21,974 nucleotides of DNA from the IMG/VR virus record IMGVR_UViG_3300025131_000488, positions 1 to 21,974 of that record; one strand, written 5' to 3'. Of this stretch, positions 1 to 11,387 are shown piece by piece. A program made the translations under genes and the position numbers. A model generated the notes under the pieces. The model was not told where the DNA came from and ran no database searches. It saw only the letters and a list, made by a program, of their open reading frames with translations. Each line of letters opens with the position of its first letter. Position 1 is the stretch's first letter. The DNA is from a virus.

Positions 1-751
1 CATCAAACGCGCCTGCAACGTCATCGACATTACTTACGCCAGCAGTTACAGGTTCAGATGTAGTTGAGTTAGTTTCCGTAGATGTAGTTGGTTTGTCTTC
101 ATCTTCAGGATTCAACCATGCTTCAAGTGCAGCTTTAAGATCATCATACGATGGTTCTTTAAAGATTTTAGTCAATTCTGGTTGATCTCCCACAATTTTA
201 TCTAAAATATTTTTATCATCCGAAACATGTGATGTATTTGGTTTTACCCTAATACTTGTTTTTGGATAGCCTCCACCCTCAGCAGGTGTAAATTCTACTA
301 CAATATCACGTCCATTAACTGGATCGGTAATATCACCGTAATCTGGATCTGCAATAAATCCTAATAACTCTTGGTAAACTGTTTTACCGAAACCCCAAAG
401 TTTAACACCTTCAGATTCTAGGCCTCGAACTATAACTGGAACGTAAGTTCTCATAATTGGTTCAAGTTTTTTACCAAGTTTCCATTCATCAGAATTACCT
501 GATGCTTTTAACTTTTCAGCAAACTCTGCAACCGGATCAGGTCGTCCATGAGTCATAGGAGAAAGATAATTTTTCTTTCCTAAATTGTAATGGAACAACA
601 ATTCATTGAACGGATTTTCCTTATTATATTGATAAGGTACTATTCGAACGATTTGTTTTCCGGGATCTGGTTTCCAAAGATTATTTTGCTTTGTAGTTTG
701 TGATTGTAACTTGTTGAGTTTTGCTTTAATAGCGTCTAAATTAATTGCCAT
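1..751 (-). CDS. gp32: gp32-like single-strand DNA-binding protein (3' end outside window)
   Basis: The visible 250 residues match the T4 gp32 layout: a basic N-terminus (residues 1-32), an OB-fold core containing GKQIVRIVPY (31-40) and LKASGNSDEWKLGKKLEPIM (81-100), and an acidic, Ser/Thr-rich C-terminal linker from about 214. In T4-like phages gp32 coats single-stranded DNA and binds replication and recombination proteins through its acidic tail; the last residues of that tail lie outside the window. The ATG at 751 is preceded by a strong GGAGGAA Shine-Dalgarno site. In T4 gp32, His64, Cys77, Cys87 and Cys90 bind zinc. Here the aligned stretch runs from H54 through S64-P-M-T-H-G to D72-P-V-A75, so all three cysteines are replaced, and there is no cysteine in the visible protein. 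The gene has its own TATAAT-type promoter candidate and lies at the end of the tagged-ORF cluster. Family assignment is firm; loss of zinc binding is inferred. Confidence 0.88.
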   Translation of the reverse strand, partial: MAINLDAIKAKLNKLQSQTTKQNNLWKPDPGKQIVRIVPYQYNKENPFNELLFHYNLGKKNYLSPMTHGRPDPVAEFAEKLKASGNSDEWKLGKKLEPIMRTYVPVIVRGLESEGVKLWGFGKTVYQELLGFIADPDYGDITDPVNGRDIVVEFTPAEGGGYPKTSIRVKPNTSHVSDDKNILDKIVGDQPELTKIFKEPSYDDLKAALEAWLNPEDEDKPTTSTETNSTTSEPVTAGVSNVDDVAGAFD

Positions 752-869: not shown

Positions 870-1190
870 TTATCGGTACCGTTCAAAGGAGCCTCTTTCA
901 ACTGTCCATTTGATATTGCCGTCTGCATCAATCTTTGCATCAAGAGCAACTAAATCAGCATTAGCTTTACCAAGCCGGGTATTAATCCATGCCAATGTAA
1001 ATGCAGTCCAGTCCGGTGAATTGTCTGGATGTCTAACACTTTCAAGAAACTCTAAAAACTCGTTTTGATCTAACATAGCTATTTTCATCATCTGAGTATC
1101 GTCTAATGTTTTAGCTTCAACGAATAACTTTTTATCAGTGGTGGCTACTCTGGCTTTAAATAATCTTTTATATTGCTCTTGTAGGTTCAT
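870..1190 (-). CDS. tagged ORF 1: unidentified 106-residue protein with shared N-terminal tag
   Basis: I do not recognise the body of this protein. Its first 21 residues (MNLQEQYKRLFK, then ARVATTDKK) match the start of the 221-residue protein two genes upstream except for one residue, and the coding DNA is nearly identical too. After residue 21 the two diverge. The tag is followed by LFVE-A at residues 22-26, resembling the (L/I)-X-E sites cut by the T4 gp21 prohead protease, although the P3 residue is Phe. The body is mildly acidic with no membrane segment or cysteine. The start has an AAGGA site and lies 8 bases after the stop of the previous gene. Inferred role: capsid-internal cargo protein. 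Confidence 0.75.
   Translation of the reverse strand: MNLQEQYKRLFKARVATTDKKLFVEAKTLDDTQMMKIAMLDQNEFLEFLESVRHPDNSPDWTAFTLAWINTRLGKANADLVALDAKIDADGNIKWTVERGSFERYR
1155..1190 (-). repeat. tag repeat copy 1 (36 bp)
   Basis: First 36 bases of tagged ORF 1, encoding MNLQEQYKRLFK. Identical over its full length to the mini-ORF copy and one base different from the copy at 2221-2256. Confidence 0.85.
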
Positions 1191-1198
1191 TTATTCCT

Positions 1199-1537
1199 TT
1201 ATTTATGATTCTTTTTTATGTATGGAAATGCAACCTTTTCCATCCAATCATCAACTGTATAACCTTTCTTTGGGTCTAACGCGACCAATTCATCTGTTAA
1301 ATCTTCACTATATCCACCCCCGTACCCATCCATCCATGAATCTTCCCATACATCATAGCTATCGAAATTCTCCATCCTATCATTTTCCATGGCTTTCAAC
1401 ACTTCCTCTGCTTTAGACTCGAATGCTGGTGATGGATATGAAAATTTGAAATCGCTCATGTTTTCTCGTAACAAGATCTTGTCATTGGTGCTTGATCTTC
1501 CTTTAAATAATCTTTTATAATTTTCTTGTAGATTCAT
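1199..1537 (-). CDS. tagged ORF 2: unidentified acidic 112-residue protein with shared N-terminal tag
   Basis: The N-terminus (MNLQENYKRLFKGRSSTNDK) is a diverged version of the tag on the neighbouring ORFs, followed by ILLRE-N at residues 21-26. L-R-E fits the (L/I)-X-E consensus of the T4 gp21 prohead protease. The rest is unrecognised: strongly acidic in the middle (MENDRMENFDSYDVWEDSW), with a Gly-rich turn and a basic C-terminus. A short C-terminal likeness to tagged ORF 1 (LVALD followed by charged residues) suggests the bodies may be distantly related or partly shuffled. The start codon overlaps the stop of the 17-residue mini-ORF by four bases (ATGA), so translation is probably coupled to it. 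Inferred role: packaged internal protein. Confidence 0.75.
   Translation of the reverse strand: MNLQENYKRLFKGRSSTNDKILLRENMSDFKFSYPSPAFESKAEEVLKAMENDRMENFDSYDVWEDSWMDGYGGGYSEDLTDELVALDPKKGYTVDDWMEKVAFPYIKKNHK
1502..1537 (-). repeat. tag repeat copy 2 (36 bp, diverged)
   Basis: First 36 bases of tagged ORF 2. It is the most diverged of the four copies: third-position changes plus a Gln-to-Asn change at residue 6, with YKRLFK conserved. Confidence 0.8.
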
Positions 1538-1587
1538 AATTTTTCTCTTTCTTTAAATAATCTTTTATATTGCTCTTGTAGGTTCAT
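1534..1587 (-). CDS. 17-residue mini-ORF consisting of the tag alone
   Basis: This short frame encodes MNLQEQYKRLFKEREKL and then stops. Its first 36 bases are identical to those of tagged ORF 1. It begins a few bases after the stop of tagged ORF 3, with an AGGATA site in front, and its TGA overlaps the ATG of tagged ORF 2 by four bases. It could be a real peptide, a leader that delivers ribosomes to ORF 2, or the stub left after deletion of a former tagged gene. A deletion remnant seems most likely to me, but the intact start, ribosome site and coupled stop mean it is probably translated. Confidence 0.5.
   Translation of the reverse strand: MNLQEQYKRLFKEREKL
1552..1587 (-). repeat. tag repeat copy 3 (36 bp, in mini-ORF)
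   Basis: Copy of the tag DNA inside the 17-codon mini-ORF. It is identical to copy 1, so duplication or gene conversion between them was recent. Confidence 0.85.
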
Positions 1588-1590
1588 TTT

Positions 1591-2256
1591 TTATCCTATT
1601 ATATCTAGTAATGCTTGTGCTGCGTCTGCTTGCTCCGGCGGCGTGCCGTCTATTGTTCCTCTTAAATCATCATATACTTGTATAAGTTCTGTATCGTTAC
1701 TATCATATACACCATCATAAAAATCACCTAATTCGTCTGTAATATCATCTGTCATATTTCGGCCATCGGACGACTCATCGCGTATAAATTGAACAACCTC
1801 TATAAAATCTTGATTGTTTCTAAACTCTTTATTTATTCCACCTTTCTTTGGCTTGTTATAATAACCTGTGTTGAACCAGATTTCAACTCTACCACTGGAC
1901 CAAACTCTAACCGCATCATAATCCCGGTCCTCTTTCATACCCATTTGAGTCAATATTGATTTTAGCTCCTTCTGGAACTCTGGAGTGCCAGGAGCATTTG
2001 GGTCATTTTTTTCAGGGAACGGCAGATGGATCACATCTCCGGAATGCCGGTCGCGACCTTCTTTTTCTTTAGTCAATTCTGGACTGTCACCCATGCCTAG
2101 CTGTTTTATTTTAGAATTAATTTTTATTTTCGTAATCCACTTCTTTGGAAACTGTTCTGGGTTTCCATGTACATTAGTGGCTTCTTCAATTATTTTTTTA
2201 TCGGTAGTAGCTACTCTACCTTTAAATAATCTTTTATATTGTTCTTGTAGGTTCAT
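1591..2256 (-). CDS. tagged ORF 3: unidentified 221-residue protein with shared N-terminal tag
   Basis: The first 21 residues are MNLQEQYKRLFK plus GRVATTDKK, followed by IIEE-A at residues 22-26. I-E-E then Ala is a textbook match to the (L/I)-X-E cleavage motif of the T4 gp21 prohead protease, and in T4 internal proteins an N-terminal capsid-targeting sequence ends at such a site. The body (26-221) is unrecognised: a charged N-terminal half with the segment DYDAVRVWSSGRVEIWFNTG (about 112-131), and a very acidic C-terminal half. There is no Shine-Dalgarno site. The ATG directly follows an ATATTTAT promoter-like motif, so the mRNA may be leaderless, or translation may be coupled to the preceding gene. 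Confidence 0.75.
   Translation of the reverse strand: MNLQEQYKRLFKGRVATTDKKIIEEATNVHGNPEQFPKKWITKIKINSKIKQLGMGDSPELTKEKEGRDRHSGDVIHLPFPEKNDPNAPGTPEFQKELKSILTQMGMKEDRDYDAVRVWSSGRVEIWFNTGYYNKPKKGGINKEFRNNQDFIEVVQFIRDESSDGRNMTDDITDELGDFYDGVYDSNDTELIQVYDDLRGTIDGTPPEQADAAQALLDIIG
2221..2256 (-). repeat. tag repeat copy 4 (36 bp)
   Basis: First 36 bases of tagged ORF 3, encoding MNLQEQYKRLFK and differing from copy 1 at one position. Similarity continues past base 36 through residue 21 of the protein. Confidence 0.85.
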
Positions 2257-2272: not shown

Positions 2273-2665
2273 TTAGATATCTATTCTCTTATATAATTCT
2301 AATTTAATTCTTCGTAATTCGGTATTATTTGTTAATAAAAGAGTATTCTTATATAACGTCCAATCAATAATAAATGTCTTATCTAAAAGACCGTTATTAG
2401 CATTTTTGATTATTTCGTTTAAAGCGTTAACTGTATATAATGAGTTCGTTTCCTTTTTCCGGTGAATCAAAATAGTATTTTCAGCTTTTTTATATTTTTG
2501 AGATATATCTACATTATACGTACAATATAAATCATTTGGTGCTTCTGCGTTATTAAAAACAAAAATCTTTTTCTCTACTATATTATATGATGTAGTTACA
2601 TAATCAATTATTAGATTAAGGTCTTTTCGATGAGCAAATGTGCATAGTAATTGTGTTTTTTCCAA
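2273..2665 (-). CDS. unidentified 130-residue protein, TTG start
   Basis: A small soluble protein with no domain I can name with confidence. Visible features are a hydrophobic first helix/strand (MEKTQLLCTF), a central NTILIHRKKETNSLYTVNALNEI segment (about 63-85) and a C-terminal Leu-rich, basic region. The start codon is TTG: GGAGA precedes it by a normal distance, the upstream gene stops four bases before it, and no in-frame ATG lies near. The compact sequence with a central HRKKET-type motif looks like a conserved phage protein. It lies between the nuclease-like gene and the tagged cluster, so a role in DNA metabolism or late expression is conceivable, but nothing in the sequence shows it. 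Confidence 0.7.
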   Translation of the reverse strand: MEKTQLLCTFAHRKDLNLIIDYVTTSYNIVEKKIFVFNNAEAPNDLYCTYNVDISQKYKKAENTILIHRKKETNSLYTVNALNEIIKNANNGLLDKTFIIDWTLYKNTLLLTNNTELRRIKLELYKRIDI

Positions 2666-2668
2666 AAT

Positions 2669-4018
2669 TTATTCTCCTGGTTCAAAAAATTTAATACCAT
2701 TTTGACTTATAGTCGAATATATAAATTCCTTTGCTCGATCTTTATTAATAATTTTAGCACGGATGTTACTAGCTGTTCCTCTAAATACCATCCAAAAGTG
2801 TGCCTGGCCTTCTTTTATAATGGTTTCTACGGCGCCATCCAAATCAGCTTCAAATTTATCAGGGTTTCTTACATACTCTAATTTTTTAAAGTAATTTACT
2901 ACAGACTCTTTCCTTGGGTCTGATGTACGATCTAGTATGTTAACCGTAAATTTACCCGTCTTAGGAACTTTCTTTAACGGTATTGGATCGACTATTATAG
3001 AAACAGGTTCTTGGTTCGGTCCTTGAGCAACCAATTGATTAATATCTGTAGAGCCAATTTCGCCTAAAATTTTATTCATTGTTTCATAAAACTGTTTAAA
3101 ATTTTTTGTATCTGTTTTATTAAATTCTCCAGTTACTATTTTCATTTTCTCTTCGACTCTATCTATTATATAATCTTTTAAAGAGTAACTGGTTTTCTTT
3201 TTTCCTTTAATCTCTGAAGTAACAGGATCCCTGAATAGTTTTAGCCAATTAGCCGAGGGCTTATCTTTATCATATCCAGGCAAATTGTTCCATACCTTCG
3301 GATCGGTATTCGCTTTTTTAACTCTCCTAACAGTATCTAATATGTTATCCCATACTGGAAATTTAGTAACTGAGCCTTCTACTCCTACTCGGATCGCATT
3401 TTTATTTTCCTTTTCAGTTTTCCCTTCCTCTTCCTTTTTACCAGAATAATCTTTTACTTCATATAAAGTTGCATTAATATCTACATCAAATGATTCATTT
3501 CCTCCTTGTATTTCTGCACCAATAAATATCCATGCACAATATAATTCTCCCTTTCCTATTCCTTTTGCCTCTAGATGAAAAATATCATTATCAATACCAG
3601 ATCCAAGATTAAAAGATTCTTTGGGAGCTGTCTCTGAATATAACTTTTCCATAAATTCTTTTAAATCTTCCGGTGATAAACTTAATAAATATTTATACAT
3701 CGAACCTCTAACAGCTTCTTTATCTCCACCTGGTAACAAGGCCAGGAACCTTTCAAACTGACCACGTTTATCATGGGCATCTGCTGCTTTCATTAATGAA
3801 TCTATGTTCTGGTCTTCACTGAGTGGTTTTTCTAATTCCTCAACCGGTTTTGCATCTAAGAATGCCTGATCTAATTGATCAACTTCATTCAATGAGGTAC
3901 CATACTTAGCCAGTACTTCATCTAAAACTCTTAATTCTTTTTGTGAATAAGGATGTTCAGCGTAACCATTTGGAAGTTCGTAAAACCAGTCTCTTATAAT
4001 GTTATCAATCTTTTCCAT
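2669..4018 (-). CDS. unidentified 449-residue protein with a PD-(D/E)XK-like motif
   Basis: The N-terminal part (1-130) is charged and helical. The middle contains GIGKGE (153-158), then GG-NESFDVD (172-180) and LYEVKD (185-190). A conserved-looking Glu, an Asp about 20 residues later and E-V-K nine residues further is the spacing of PD-(D/E)XK nucleases such as T7 endonuclease I. This is motif reading only. An alternative is a structural or scaffold-like protein with a chance EVK. The region after residue 190 is basic and Lys-rich. The gene follows the DNA polymerase after 21 bases, with an ATATTTAT motif between them and no Shine-Dalgarno site, so it is either leaderless or coupled to the polymerase. 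It ends four bases before the next gene. Confidence 0.75.
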   Translation of the reverse strand: MEKIDNIIRDWFYELPNGYAEHPYSQKELRVLDEVLAKYGTSLNEVDQLDQAFLDAKPVEELEKPLSEDQNIDSLMKAADAHDKRGQFERFLALLPGGDKEAVRGSMYKYLLSLSPEDLKEFMEKLYSETAPKESFNLGSGIDNDIFHLEAKGIGKGELYCAWIFIGAEIQGGNESFDVDINATLYEVKDYSGKKEEEGKTEKENKNAIRVGVEGSVTKFPVWDNILDTVRRVKKANTDPKVWNNLPGYDKDKPSANWLKLFRDPVTSEIKGKKKTSYSLKDYIIDRVEEKMKIVTGEFNKTDTKNFKQFYETMNKILGEIGSTDINQLVAQGPNQEPVSIIVDPIPLKKVPKTGKFTVNILDRTSDPRKESVVNYFKKLEYVRNPDKFEADLDGAVETIIKEGQAHFWMVFRGTASNIRAKIINKDRAKEFIYSTISQNGIKFFEPGE

Positions 4019-4039: not shown

Positions 4040-5389
4040 TTATTGTACTTTATCGCTCATATCCATCATATGGTGATAGGTTTTTCCGGCGTGTATTTTG
4101 ACTGGATATCGGTTATCATCTGAGATTCTTTTGCGTAATAACATTAATAAATCTTTTCCATCATTAATATTAAAATCAAATAAAAAGCTATCATAGGTAT
4201 ATAAAATGATTTTACTATCATAACCTTGTAATATATCGTTTATTTCTTGGATTACTGTTATACTATATTCCGTTTCTAACGCTTGTAGAAAATAATTAAA
4301 TAATTTGCTTGGATTCATATCTGTCATAGAATTTCTAAACATTTTTCTTTCTACGATTGCTGTTTTAATGTAACCTTTTTCTTGAAAATCATTCCATAAA
4401 AATCTACTAAAATCTTTTACCTTTTTAAAAAATTCTATATTTTCAAATTCTTTTGTTACTCCGCCGTATAATAATTTAAAAGAAGCTTGTTTACTTTGAG
4501 CATATTCTTCTTCTGTTAATGCATCTTTTCCGAAATATTGTTTTCCAAAATATTCATGTACAGATCCTTCCGGAAATTTATATCCAACTATATCTGCAAT
4601 TAATCTTAAGTGGTAACTATCAAAATCAAATTCTACTAACATTCCATTTTGAAATCTACTTACAAAAGATTTCCGAGCACCATCTTCTTTATTAAGAGCT
4701 GCATAATTAACTCCTCCATATCTGTTACTTGGTCTTCCGGTGGTTGTGTAAATATTATATTCTGTATGAACTGTATTGTCTTGTATATTATTTGATTGAA
4801 ATGAATTAACAAATTCATTATAATTTATCCGTAATCCATTTCTTTCTATTGCATATAAATTGTCTATGAACAATGAATTATATTGATCAAATGATTTTGG
4901 CTTTCGAAATGTCCGGAAAGACTCTATAAACTTATCTTTAATCTCAGAACACTTTTCATAGTGGTTTACAATAGGAATAAAGTCATTTACATTGGTTTCA
5001 TTATAAAATTTCTTATTAAAAAAATCATGAGCCGGTGTATCTGTATCATCCAATTGTAATGTATTATTGCTTTGAAAATACTCAACTAAATTGGCATCAT
5101 AAGTCTCAAAAGAGTAAAATGCTAGGAATTGTTTTTTACCCAGTATATAGATATCCGCATGACTTGTAGCCTGTTGTAGCCGTTCGGTTTCGAGGGATAT
5201 ACAGTCCTTATGATGGAATGATATTATATAGTCCATTCCAGTATCAATAAGATAAATGTATATAAAACTCAATCTATTATTTACGTAATGCTTATATTGA
5301 TCAGAGTAAACGGGTATCCAAAAGCTTTTGCTTTTATCCAGTTCCTGTTTGAACAAGTCAAACTGTTGTTCGTTCTCGATTAATATCAT
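4040..5389 (-). CDS. family A (Pol I-like) DNA polymerase, variant active site
   Basis: The C-terminal 240 residues carry the family A polymerase motifs in order: TTTGRPSNR with a following N (215-228); motif A EFDFDSYHLRLIAD (253-266), with catalytic D255; motif B SKQASFKLLYGG (299-310), with K300, F304 and Y308 matching E. coli Pol I K758, F762 and Y766; and motif C LYTYDSFLF (396-404), with catalytic D400. Unusual points: the motif A Glu (Pol I E710, a steric gate) is His260, the motif C His-Asp-Glu is Tyr-Asp-Ser, and the motif B Arg four residues before the Lys is missing. The N-terminal 150 residues could be a degenerate 3'-5' exonuclease domain, but I see no intact DEDD motifs. At 449 residues it is short for the family. 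T4-like phages usually replicate with a family B enzyme (gp43), so this may be a second or replacement polymerase. An in-frame stop closely precedes the ATG, and there is no Shine-Dalgarno site. Confidence 0.85.
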   Translation of the reverse strand: MILIENEQQFDLFKQELDKSKSFWIPVYSDQYKHYVNNRLSFIYIYLIDTGMDYIISFHHKDCISLETERLQQATSHADIYILGKKQFLAFYSFETYDANLVEYFQSNNTLQLDDTDTPAHDFFNKKFYNETNVNDFIPIVNHYEKCSEIKDKFIESFRTFRKPKSFDQYNSLFIDNLYAIERNGLRINYNEFVNSFQSNNIQDNTVHTEYNIYTTTGRPSNRYGGVNYAALNKEDGARKSFVSRFQNGMLVEFDFDSYHLRLIADIVGYKFPEGSVHEYFGKQYFGKDALTEEEYAQSKQASFKLLYGGVTKEFENIEFFKKVKDFSRFLWNDFQEKGYIKTAIVERKMFRNSMTDMNPSKLFNYFLQALETEYSITVIQEINDILQGYDSKIILYTYDSFLFDFNINDGKDLLMLLRKRISDDNRYPVKIHAGKTYHHMMDMSDKVQ

Positions 5390-8303: not shown

Positions 8304-11300
8304 TTATGTTACATTTGATAATCCAGTATATATAGTCGAAGTTGAATTTGAAACATATGCAGACCTGAGATCTAGTATGATAGATAAATCTATAGTCCAA
8401 TACATTGGTAATTCTGCATCAATATCCCATGGAGTTTCTGGATCTATATCTACGCTAAATCCAGATATCCAGCCACGGCGATTCACTATTAAATTACCTA
8501 TAGTAACCATCATTTTTTGCGCTGTAAAGTCGCTTGCTCCCATGGGTAACATTATCTGTGATAATCTATCTGTTTTTTCCCATAATATCTTTAATTCTTC
8601 TTTCGTCGTGGCTGCGACTATAAAGGTTATGCTTATCTCACGCGTAAGAGTTTCAATACCATAAATTGGTGAAGTGTCACCTTGCTCTTGCTCGGCCGAC
8701 CACGTTGGATTTATACTGTCTCCAATATTTTGTATAAATGCTCTAAAAATAATTGGCGTTTGATGTACTTGAAATTTAAATTTTATAAAATCTTTTTTGT
8801 CTTCACCATAATCATTACCTTTAGATAACATGTTGATTGGGTCAGAAAGTCCGGTTGACTTTGTAAAATCACTTCTATCTACTCCTACTTTACCCGAATC
8901 TGGAATACCATATTTTGTTTGTATATTTTTTTCTGCATATGCAGCGGCCTTAGATGACCCCATGAACTTAACACTATCAGATTTATCAATAAGTGATCGA
9001 AAATCATGAAATGATGATGGTGTTATTGCTTTTTCTTTAGTTGGTAATTTACCATAAGATACAGTTGCATATTTTTGAATATTAGGTAGCTTTTTTAAAG
9101 GATCCGGATCCGTTGGTGTTGCTGGCTGTGAATATCCGTTTATTTCCGTTGGTGGTACATTTTTATCTTTCTCATTTGCTTTTAGTAACGGTGGTTTACC
9201 AAAGAACGACTGGTGTTCAAATCCAACGTTAGGCAGCTGTGGAGGGCGAAAATGAGCTTTTAGTTTCCGTTTATCAGCCGCCTTTAATCGACCTGTAGGA
9301 GATAGATTTGTACTAATACTCGGCGATAATAATGATGCATACTGATTCTGTTGTCTTGGATAGCCATTTAGAGCCATATAATCATTAGTCCACTTCCCTC
9401 TTGAATCTACGGCTCTAGATATTCCAATTATCGGATTACCTGTTAATGTACTTGTTCCTGGTATTCCGTATAATGTATTTGGTCCGTTAACATTTCCTAG
9501 ATTTGGAATTTTCTTTGTGAGAGCGACGGCGAAATTGGTAAATATTCCAGCACCTTTCCTTTCACCGGTCTTATATAATCGATTAGCGGCCTTACCATCC
9601 AGATTAAGTAACGAATCTCTGAACTTAAAAATAGCTTCATATCTACCAACTGTTGGACCTGGTAATATTCCATGTCGCTGCCAATGTAATCCTAAAGCAT
9701 TAGTAGCTACATTAGCTAATGTATTAATGGGTGTCCAAATTTTATTCATTTGGGCCAATGGCATGCCCGGTGTTCCACTAAAGCTTTCATAAGTAGGATT
9801 TGACTGCTGCAAACCAAATTGCTTAACCATCCATAAAATACCTTTAGGTTTAATCAACCACTTGCCAATTCTTAAAACATCCATTGCTAATCGGTCAACT
9901 GAGGCAACTACTCCGGCTCGCATTAGTCCGTCATCAGCCCAAGGCCCACTAACACCAAATCCCCATCTTTGATTTTCTGTTTTACCGGGTCTCTGTATTC
10001 CTCTTAAAATAAAAGGTTCTCTTGCATATCCAACTGGATTAAAAGCTTCATCACGTACAACAAATTTATTGTACATATCATCAATTGGAGAATTGGTCGT
10101 ATATGTATCTGCTAATCCAAAATTTGTATTAGGTTTGGTTTTGGAATTAATTCCAACTACATCTCCATATCTTGAATTAGGATTCCAACCTGTATGTTTA
10201 AGTGGTTTCCAATCATACTGTGTTCCATCAAATGAAGGAAATGGATATCCTTGACCGCCTTGATTAAGGAAAGATGCATCGCCGTTGACATTATATGTTT
10301 TATCATCAATCCAAAACTTATTTTTAGCTTCTCTATCTTGATAAGATACATCTAATGATCTTCCGATTGGAACTTTAGTAAATGGCCGTAATGTATCTTT
10401 GTTAAAAGAAAATCTAGAACCGTCTGCTTGAAATCCGACTACATTCCCTTCTGGAACATATTTTGGAGAGAATTTTGTATTTACTGTACTACCTAATTTT
10501 TTATCAGGCATACGTTCGTTATAAAATCCATATGAACTTAATATTGTAGCTGGATAATCATATGTCCAATCACTTGGAGAAATGCCTCGAAACAAACTTC
10601 GCTTGTTTAAGGGTCGGTACTGTATGTCTGGAGTAAATCCTAAAGCAGCTGTATTATGAAGATTATCTACTACTGTAGTTCCAGGATTGAATTTTCCGGG
10701 CATAGTTGTATTGTAGAAACCATATGAACTTAATATTGTAGCTGGATAATCATATGTCCAATCACTTATAGTAATTCCTTGAAATTGACTTGGAGACCGG
10801 TGTATTAAATCTGGTGTAAATCCTTTTGCTGCTGTATTATGAAGATTATCTACATTACCTAATACAGTACTGAAAACACTTGGTCTATTAAAAAATAAAT
10901 CAGGAGCTGTACCTGTTACTCCGGTAAACTCGGTTGGATCTAATTGTTTCCGGCCTAAGGTAAATCCGGTTTGGTCAACATTAGAACTTGGAGGACCGGC
11001 TGGATTAAACGCTCCATCATAAGCACCTATAATTGTATTTGGAACAGCTGGCCTACTAAATTCAAGAGCTCCTGGTCCTCCGGTTACTCCGGTAAATTCC
11101 GTTGGATCTAATTGTTTCCGGCCTGGAGTAAACCCAGATGCATCAGTGTTAATCCAATTATCTGTAAAACCTAATACGGTACTAAAAACATTTGGTCTAT
11201 TAAAACTTAAAGTAGGAGATGCTCCTGTTACTCCTGTAAATTCGGTTTCATCTAGATGCTTTCGACCTGGAGTAAATCCGGTTTGATGTTCGTTTGTGCC

Positions 11301-11387
11301 TGAAATGCCTTGAGGATTTTGAGCTCCATCATAAGCGGGTGGAGTTCCGTACCAAGTTAAATCCGATATTAAATCTATTAGTGCCAT
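8304..11387 (-). CDS. 1027-residue baseplate/tail structural protein with N-terminal internal repeats
   Basis: The N-terminal 300 residues are imperfect repeats: GFTPGRK-LD-TEFTGVTG occurs at 37-55, 85-103 and 141-159; related GFTPD at 189 and 250; and SDWTYDYPATILSSYGFYN twice, identically, at 208-226 and 272-290. The C-terminal 150 residues (QVHQTPIIFRAFIQNIGD, TREISITFIVAATTKEEL, WDIDAELPMYWTIDLSI) look like a tail-tube-type domain as in T4 gp48/gp54 tube-initiator proteins, so the protein may connect baseplate to tube. The middle (about 310-860) is Asn/Gly/Pro-rich and unrecognised. The ATG overlaps the tape measure stop (TAATG), giving strict coupling and suggesting joint assembly. Structural role is likely; the gp48/54 relation is inference. 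Confidence 0.7.
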   Translation of the reverse strand: MALIDLISDLTWYGTPPAYDGAQNPQGISGTNEHQTGFTPGRKHLDETEFTGVTGASPTLSFNRPNVFSTVLGFTDNWINTDASGFTPGRKQLDPTEFTGVTGGPGALEFSRPAVPNTIIGAYDGAFNPAGPPSSNVDQTGFTLGRKQLDPTEFTGVTGTAPDLFFNRPSVFSTVLGNVDNLHNTAAKGFTPDLIHRSPSQFQGITISDWTYDYPATILSSYGFYNTTMPGKFNPGTTVVDNLHNTAALGFTPDIQYRPLNKRSLFRGISPSDWTYDYPATILSSYGFYNERMPDKKLGSTVNTKFSPKYVPEGNVVGFQADGSRFSFNKDTLRPFTKVPIGRSLDVSYQDREAKNKFWIDDKTYNVNGDASFLNQGGQGYPFPSFDGTQYDWKPLKHTGWNPNSRYGDVVGINSKTKPNTNFGLADTYTTNSPIDDMYNKFVVRDEAFNPVGYAREPFILRGIQRPGKTENQRWGFGVSGPWADDGLMRAGVVASVDRLAMDVLRIGKWLIKPKGILWMVKQFGLQQSNPTYESFSGTPGMPLAQMNKIWTPINTLANVATNALGLHWQRHGILPGPTVGRYEAIFKFRDSLLNLDGKAANRLYKTGERKGAGIFTNFAVALTKKIPNLGNVNGPNTLYGIPGTSTLTGNPIIGISRAVDSRGKWTNDYMALNGYPRQQNQYASLLSPSISTNLSPTGRLKAADKRKLKAHFRPPQLPNVGFEHQSFFGKPPLLKANEKDKNVPPTEINGYSQPATPTDPDPLKKLPNIQKYATVSYGKLPTKEKAITPSSFHDFRSLIDKSDSVKFMGSSKAAAYAEKNIQTKYGIPDSGKVGVDRSDFTKSTGLSDPINMLSKGNDYGEDKKDFIKFKFQVHQTPIIFRAFIQNIGDSINPTWSAEQEQGDTSPIYGIETLTREISITFIVAATTKEELKILWEKTDRLSQIMLPMGASDFTAQKMMVTIGNLIVNRRGWISGFSVDIDPETPWDIDAELPMYWTIDLSIILDLRSAYVSNSTSTIYTGLSNVT
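10528..10575 (-). repeat. 48-bp direct repeat, copy A, within the large baseplate gene
   Basis: Encodes most of the second SDWTYDYPATILSSYGFYN block. By eye it is identical base for base to 10720-10767, which is notable because flanking repeat units have diverged. Confidence 0.9.
10720..10767 (-). repeat. 48-bp direct repeat, copy B, within the large baseplate gene
   Basis: Partner of the copy at 10528-10575, 192 bases away (an exact multiple of three). Recombination between them would delete or add one 64-residue unit in frame. Confidence 0.9.

Follow-up and report, generated by a model that had tools for sequence, protein, structure and literature searches.

A shared N-terminal leader in a hypervariable gene island of marine T4-like phages resembles a capsid-targeting sequence

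Leader-bearing genes in the window and beyond

The window, a stretch of 21,974 nucleotides, is a 22-kb IMG/VR fragment with T4-like tail genes, and Flavobacterium phage immuto is its nearest annotated isolate when sheath proteins are compared (46% identity). Three genes that begin with a common leader lie between two conserved flanking genes, together with a leader-only mini-ORF (Table 1). The syntenic immuto counterpart of the ssDNA-binding flank carries the annotation 'ssDNA binding protein'. We refer to the part of each product that follows the leader as the cargo. The cargo of gene 1 is acidic (pI 4.7, 22 kDa) and has a MTDDITDELGDFYD C-terminal domain, and that of gene 2 recurs at 79% identity in two other contigs (L012/L024). 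The stop codon of the mini-ORF overlaps the start of the next gene. The mini-ORF recurs in two near-identical contigs and is likely the scar of a cassette loss or of recombination.

Table 1. Features of the window (a slash marks the predicted cleavage site)
Feature	Position	Strand	Description
DNA polymerase family A-like	4040..5389	-	outer conserved neighbour; PF00476, E 6.6e-10
449-aa protein	2669..4018	-	outer conserved neighbour; function not assigned
130-aa protein	2273..2665	-	island flank; conserved; HRKKETN(S/T)LYTVNALN motif; function not assigned
Leader + cargo gene 1	1591..2256	-	221 aa; N-terminus MNLQEQYKRLFKGRVATTDKKIIEE/A
Leader of gene 1	2182-2256	-	codons 1-25; predicted cut KKIIEE/ATNV
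Leader-only mini-ORF	1534..1587	-	MNLQEQYKRLFKEREKL followed by stop; 17 aa, without cargo
Leader + cargo gene 2	1199..1537	-	112 aa; N-terminus MNLQENYKRLFKGRSSTNDKILLRE/N
Leader of gene 2	1463-1537	-	predicted cut ILLRE/NMSD
Leader + cargo gene 3	870..1190	-	106 aa; N-terminus MNLQEQYKRLFKARVATTDKKLFVE/A
Leader of gene 3	1116-1190	-	predicted cut KLFVE/AKTL; P3 is F instead of L/I
ssDNA-binding protein, gp32-like	1..751	-	island flank; MAINLDAIKAKLNKLQ...; cut by the window end
1027-aa protein	8304-11387	-	tail gene region; N-terminal-side repeats GFTPGRKxLDxTEFTGVTG and SDWTYDYPATILSSYGFYN

The first-pass annotation had described three ORFs with nearly the same N-terminus on unrelated bodies. 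This observation is correct but understated, the leader-only mini-ORF having been overlooked. All three products carry a 25-residue leader ending in [L/I/F]xE; residues 23-25 read I-E-E, L-R-E and F-V-E as claimed, two of the three fitting (L/I)xE, and the bodies are mutually unrelated (best BLASTP E 0.016). Viewed as DNA, the leader forms a direct repeat of 79 nt, whose four members are 68-85% identical to the reference copy. The leader also reaches well beyond the window: with degenerate DNA patterns and a leader HMM applied to related viral contigs, about 60 copies were collected on some 50 different bodies, and the HMM matches single copies in other contigs with E-values down to about 1e-18. 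Many of these bodies are without any match, and some have single domains in common, in differing combinations. Neither the 26-aa leader nor the 221-aa protein had a tblastn match among isolate phages, and the exact leader pattern was not found in bacterial and archaeal genome contigs.

The leader is made up of a short basic stretch, probably helical, followed by SND..L[LI]xE, and L3, Y7, F11, D19 and E25 do not vary among the 28 leaders aligned. Pairwise comparison of 31 leaders gave a median pS of 0.65, with synonymous sites near saturation, against a pN of 0.22, so that the amino acids, and not the DNA alone, are under constraint; a purely neutral DNA repeat was rejected by this codon analysis. 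Taken with the HMM E-values, the same figures indicate that the sharing of the leader is not due to chance.

A predicted cleavage site in common with head proteins

The leader had been likened to a capsid-targeting sequence (CTS) with a gp21-type cleavage site, and the comparison is supported: every check on sequence that the annotation proposed came out in its favour, and so did the position of some copies in the prohead operon and the exchange of leaders. Among 59 copies, 57 have [LIMVF]xE at the leader end (58 when one truncated by the contig end is counted), and the only true exception, lacking the motif, is L033:528 (LLTTSEA). P3 is L or I in 54 of the 57 sites, and P1' is mostly A, S, N, G, D or E. 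Leaders that are one residue shorter or longer retain the site (KMLIE/A, IILE/Q, LLLE/S).

Because the window is a fragment without gp21 or gp23 (PF03420 is absent, as expected of 22 kb, and gp23 likewise), we infer the gp21 protease of its phage from syntenic relatives. A gp21-type protease (PF03420) is indeed present in the clade, also on four contigs that carry leader ORFs (G006, G022, G026 and G028). The capsid sites share the leader motif, as the annotation had proposed to check: the predicted gp23 site of the clade is QLV[ST]E/A or close to it in 35 of 41 sequences. The last predicted gp23 site before the mature part reads V[ST]E/A in 35 and V[ST]E/V in five (n=41), mostly within QLV[ST]E, and nearly equals the commonest leader ends (LISE/A and LLSE/A) from P4 to P1'. 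Predicted LxE sites are also carried by gp21 and by core proteins (QINE/S, ILNE/K, RLNE/A).

The leader itself occurs in the prohead operon. Leader variants were found on the second gene after gp21 (L079, L080, L086, L112, L115, L116, L121 and L127), giving eight prohead operons with a leader variant on a core gene just downstream of the protease. A leader ORF lies between gp21 and gp22 in L039 and L064, the gene order of the former being gp21, 86 aa, 108 aa, leader ORF, core protein, 85 aa, gp22 and gp23. One 103-kb contig (G028) has one leader in its prohead operon and another far off (MNLGKKYKQLFEGKTRSNDATLIKE/N), and a contig of 127 kb (G026) combines gp21, gp23 (QLVTE/A) and a two-leader ORF.

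The island adjoins genes for an ssDNA-binding protein and a DNA polymerase-like protein and not capsid genes, as might be expected if the leader served another compartment or machine (tail, membrane or replication complex) and LxE were coincidental or the site of another protease. We consider this improbable, given that the same leader stands on genes inside the gp21-gp22-gp23 operon and that its site matches the gp23 site of the clade. Site-bearing N-termini are also uncommon elsewhere: [LI]xE[ASG] within residues 7-40 occurs in 26 of 190 non-leader ORFs of five phages, and several of the 26 are head-core genes. On these comparisons, the leader very probably sends proteins into the head and is then removed by the head-maturation protease.

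The hypervariable island, exchange of leaders and polyproteins

The clade consists of uncultured marine T4-like phages with a gene island whose content is swapped in and out. In about 30 contigs the order is the polA-like gene, the 449-aa gene, the 130-aa gene, the cassettes and the ssDNA-binding protein gene. Searching with the 130-aa family identified 73 distinct islands, which span 110 to 3191 bp and hold between 0 and 5 ORFs; leader cassettes are absent from about 10 of them, and the island cassettes are mostly unrelated to each other. The motif [LI]xE[ASGN] is found in residues 6-45 of 61 out of 98 distinct island ORFs; shuffled sequences gave 11.0 +/- 3.2.

The islands contain at least five leader families: A (MNLQENYKRLFKGR..SND..LLSE/), B (MKLKKLLE/), C (MIKLAGLAKPFLKE/), D (MKKPLLDTFNRIGGKRLNE/) and F (MKKSEFRSLLREEIRKVVNE/). 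Leader D also opens a prohead-operon gene in L081. Such leaders are missing from a minority of the island ORFs (MADVY..., MAYRIV..., MFNSQRW...). Small leaderless proteins of the form MADVY.ADFK.FNTGDIITE...WFGYP adjoin the ssDNA-binding protein gene in five islands (L203, L196, L207, L188 and L074). Separately, N-termini reading MKxSEFRxLIREEIxxVLxE or MKLTxLLxE were seen on many T4-like proteins (the L225, L223, L229 and L211 islands; L140 and L150); they may represent a further head-targeting leader family, which could mark many more packaged proteins.

The idea of a modular leader onto which different cargo is placed is borne out by homologous bodies that follow unrelated leaders, joined exactly at the LxE site. 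The AWER body was found on three leaders (LLSE/AMAWER, MKLKKLLE/GMAWER and GGKRLNE/AHAWER). Other swap pairs are SLINE/AVAEPN and AKGLIKE/AVAKPN (body identities 33/60), LLNE/APMVQAFPKMKT and GTLNE/APMKRAFPKMKT, and MVISE/ANSAMRLK and KLKTLLE/DYSTMSLK, and the MTDDITDEL domain of window ORF3 comes after leader D in G006 and L031. With the junction of leader and cargo placed precisely at the protease site, one cargo could freely replace another. The AWERxPGxPLPTLKD module, about 30 aa long, follows different leaders in L061, L002, L013, L102 and L226; as it often ends in LNE/A or LKE/A, it may be a second removable propeptide.

A second leader stands in frame in several ORFs: L012 (402 aa), G001/L020 (339 aa), L071 (373 aa), L074 (332 aa), L032 and L040. 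In the last two, the inner leader retains its cleavage half only (GRISSNDKMLISE/A or GRISSNDKMVISE/A), and the same bodies also occur in other places behind a complete leader (L033:882, L032:5799). A gp21-type site lies just upstream of the inner leaders (LNE/S, LDE/G, IEE/G, LLE/N; MME/S in L042), so that in the two-unit ORFs such sites stand on both sides of the inner leader. In the T4 CTS, the N-terminal part targets and the C-terminal part is processed (PMC9026906). By analogy, loss of the N-terminal half in the inner copies would fit this division. A leader in L042 (5013-5108, plus strand) forms the C-terminal end of a 116-aa frame that stops five residues past the site; it is either a truncated cassette or a C-terminal tag. 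Misassembly was considered as a source of the polyproteins and is unlikely, because several contig lineages have two-unit ORFs and contigs of different metagenomes have one junction in common; single contigs could still be chimeric.

These arrangements bear on a reading in which the leader is a DNA recombination anchor or an expression element whose encoded protein has no function. It would account for the direct repeat in the window, the leader-only remnant at 1534-1587 and the shuffling of cassettes at the leader. It is nevertheless highly improbable: the 31 leaders keep their amino acids at the pS and pN given above, LxE is preserved in the indel variants, unrelated leaders replace the shared leader at the same junction, and several inner copies of the polyproteins retain the protein motif without a start codon. 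A further proposal, which we make tentatively and at somewhat less than even odds, is a dedicated plug-in island in which any cargo may be combined, at the protease site, with any of several prohead-targeting leaders, and in which effectors joined in one polyprotein are separated by the prohead protease within the capsid. If true, this would amount to a means of loading effectors into the virion, with cargo that is legible from sequence.

Cargo, relation to known systems and significance

The cargo is acidic, with a median pI of 4.45 compared with 5.6 for other ORFs of the same phages, and it does not show the basic character of the mature T4 internal proteins; partly for this reason we do not call the cargoes T4 internal proteins. 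Further internal sites are not depleted in the cargo (33 observed, 32.5 expected), which gives no sign that the cargo survives intact. When 32 leader proteins were scanned with Pfam, PHROGs and PADLOC, the matches were weak and scattered, none was accepted, and no cargo domain was recognised. AlphaFold models of two cargo families are of low confidence, with mean pLDDT values of 55 and 60, the leader being below 50 in both. Foldseek returned nothing significant for one cargo model (best E 0.17), and its match to AcrIF13 (E 0.38) was treated as noise.

These properties give some weight to a reading in which the leader targets the prohead and gp21 cuts it, and the cargoes, instead of being effectors for the host, serve in building the head as accessory core or scaffold proteins and are degraded or kept in it. 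Leader variants sit on slot-2 core genes of the prohead operon, the cargo is acidic as the scaffold protein of the operon looks from its sequence, internal LxE sites show no depletion, and AWER..PLPTLKD modules are common to an operon gene and to island cassettes. Cassettes that are highly variable, missing from about one island in seven (10/73) and mostly unrelated are, however, what is expected of accessory effectors, and we regard this reading as unlikely for the cargo as a whole. Because of the acidity and the undepleted sites, some cargo may still have a role in the assembly core.

As to the leader, we consider it likely that it is a removable prohead-targeting tag cut at LxE, and that the cargo is packaged and probably enters the next host. 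Late in infection, the leader would draw each leader-bearing protein into the prohead core. During head maturation, the gp21-type prohead protease would cut after the glutamate of [L/I]xE and free the cargo inside the capsid. There the cargo would be packaged alongside the DNA, and it would probably be carried into the next cell that the phage infects. A variety of leader-cargo cassettes would gather at the hotspot enclosed by the genes for the 130-aa and ssDNA-binding proteins, some of them fused into polyproteins for the protease to separate. Prohead targeting and cleavage are well supported by sequence, and packaging is what we infer; that the cargo is injected, and that it acts against restriction or the host in another way, is suggested by analogy with T4 IPI-III only.

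In our preferred reading, the system operates in the manner of the T4 capsid-targeting sequences and internal proteins but differs in its leaders, its acidic cargo and its polyproteins. In T4, the internal proteins IPI, IPII and IPIII and their CTS combine a short N-terminal leader with otherwise unrelated small proteins, and the CTS ends at a gp21-type (L/I)xE and varies between related phages (PMC9026906); all of this applies here. The leader also appears, as in T4, to divide into one part for targeting and one for processing. The likeness is functional, the protease of the clade belonging to the gp21 family (PF03420), whereas the clade leader has a different sequence and about 25 residues instead of the 10 of T4. 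Also unlike T4, the clade has several interchangeable leader families in one island, tandem polyproteins, the same leader on a prohead-operon core gene, an island fixed between the 130-aa and ssDNA-binding protein genes, and cargo that is acidic where the T4 internal proteins are basic.

The Ip1-3 proteins of T-even phages share only the leader and inhibit different GmrSD enzymes (PMC12373910). The injected anti-restriction proteins of these phages come from an accessory-gene hotspot, share the leader only and number several per phage (PMC12373910), as here, but the cargo of the clade has no family match and anti-restriction is an analogy only. The head propeptides and the inner-body or ejection proteins of phiKZ and SPN3US offer another parallel, as there too a prohead protease cuts head proteins after glutamate, as described in parts of PMC5694885 and PMC9026906. 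The same parts describe paralogs with identical N-terminal leaders and multiple sites in one propeptide, both of which have counterparts here; their motif is (S/A)xE and not LxE, several SPN3US propeptides exceed 100 residues, unlike the leaders here, and swapping of cargo between unrelated leaders, which we observe, was not found described in them. The DarA/Hdf proteins of phage P1 are head-associated and tied to head assembly and anti-restriction defence (PMC12810830), and their likeness to the present proteins lies in these roles. To our knowledge, no shared-leader cassette island is known for DarA/Hdf.

Immuto, the cultured counterpart, has a leader of its own, MENFDLKKFLVENKLTxNSKLINE/G or close variants, on four unrelated proteins, which start at genome positions 1803 (KNV73_gp003), 103806, 117631 and 118632. 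KNV73_gp003 of immuto stands at the syntenic island, between the relative of the 130-aa protein and the annotated ssDNA-binding protein. The immuto leader pattern MENFDLKKFLVENKLT.NS.L..E was located in proteins at L236:1803-2318, L240:47806-48354, L015:5632-6633 and L015:6633-6932. One of the four immuto leader proteins is annotated as cob(I)alamin adenosyltransferase. The immuto sequence (L239:12607-31015) is also annotated with queuosine-pathway and DpdA genes, which suggests 7-deazaguanine DNA modification in this phage, a possible context for anti-restriction cargo.

We did not find the same system described for marine or Bacteroidota T4-like phages in the open-licence literature, nor did we find in such papers several exchangeable leader families within an island, a leader in common with a prohead core gene, or such polyproteins. 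Proteins carried in phage heads are hard to recognise, because the cargo lacks family resemblance. The leader and its LxE junction mark the cargo and the flanking genes pinpoint the cassette hotspot, so candidates can be listed from sequence across many uncultured marine phages, and immuto offers a cultured phage for a direct test of the leader-cargo system. Each phage of the clade appears to package a protein set of its own, which may be delivered into the host. If confirmed, the system would extend the internal-protein principle of T4 well beyond the T-even phages and add to it alternative targeting leaders and polyproteins processed by the prohead protease.
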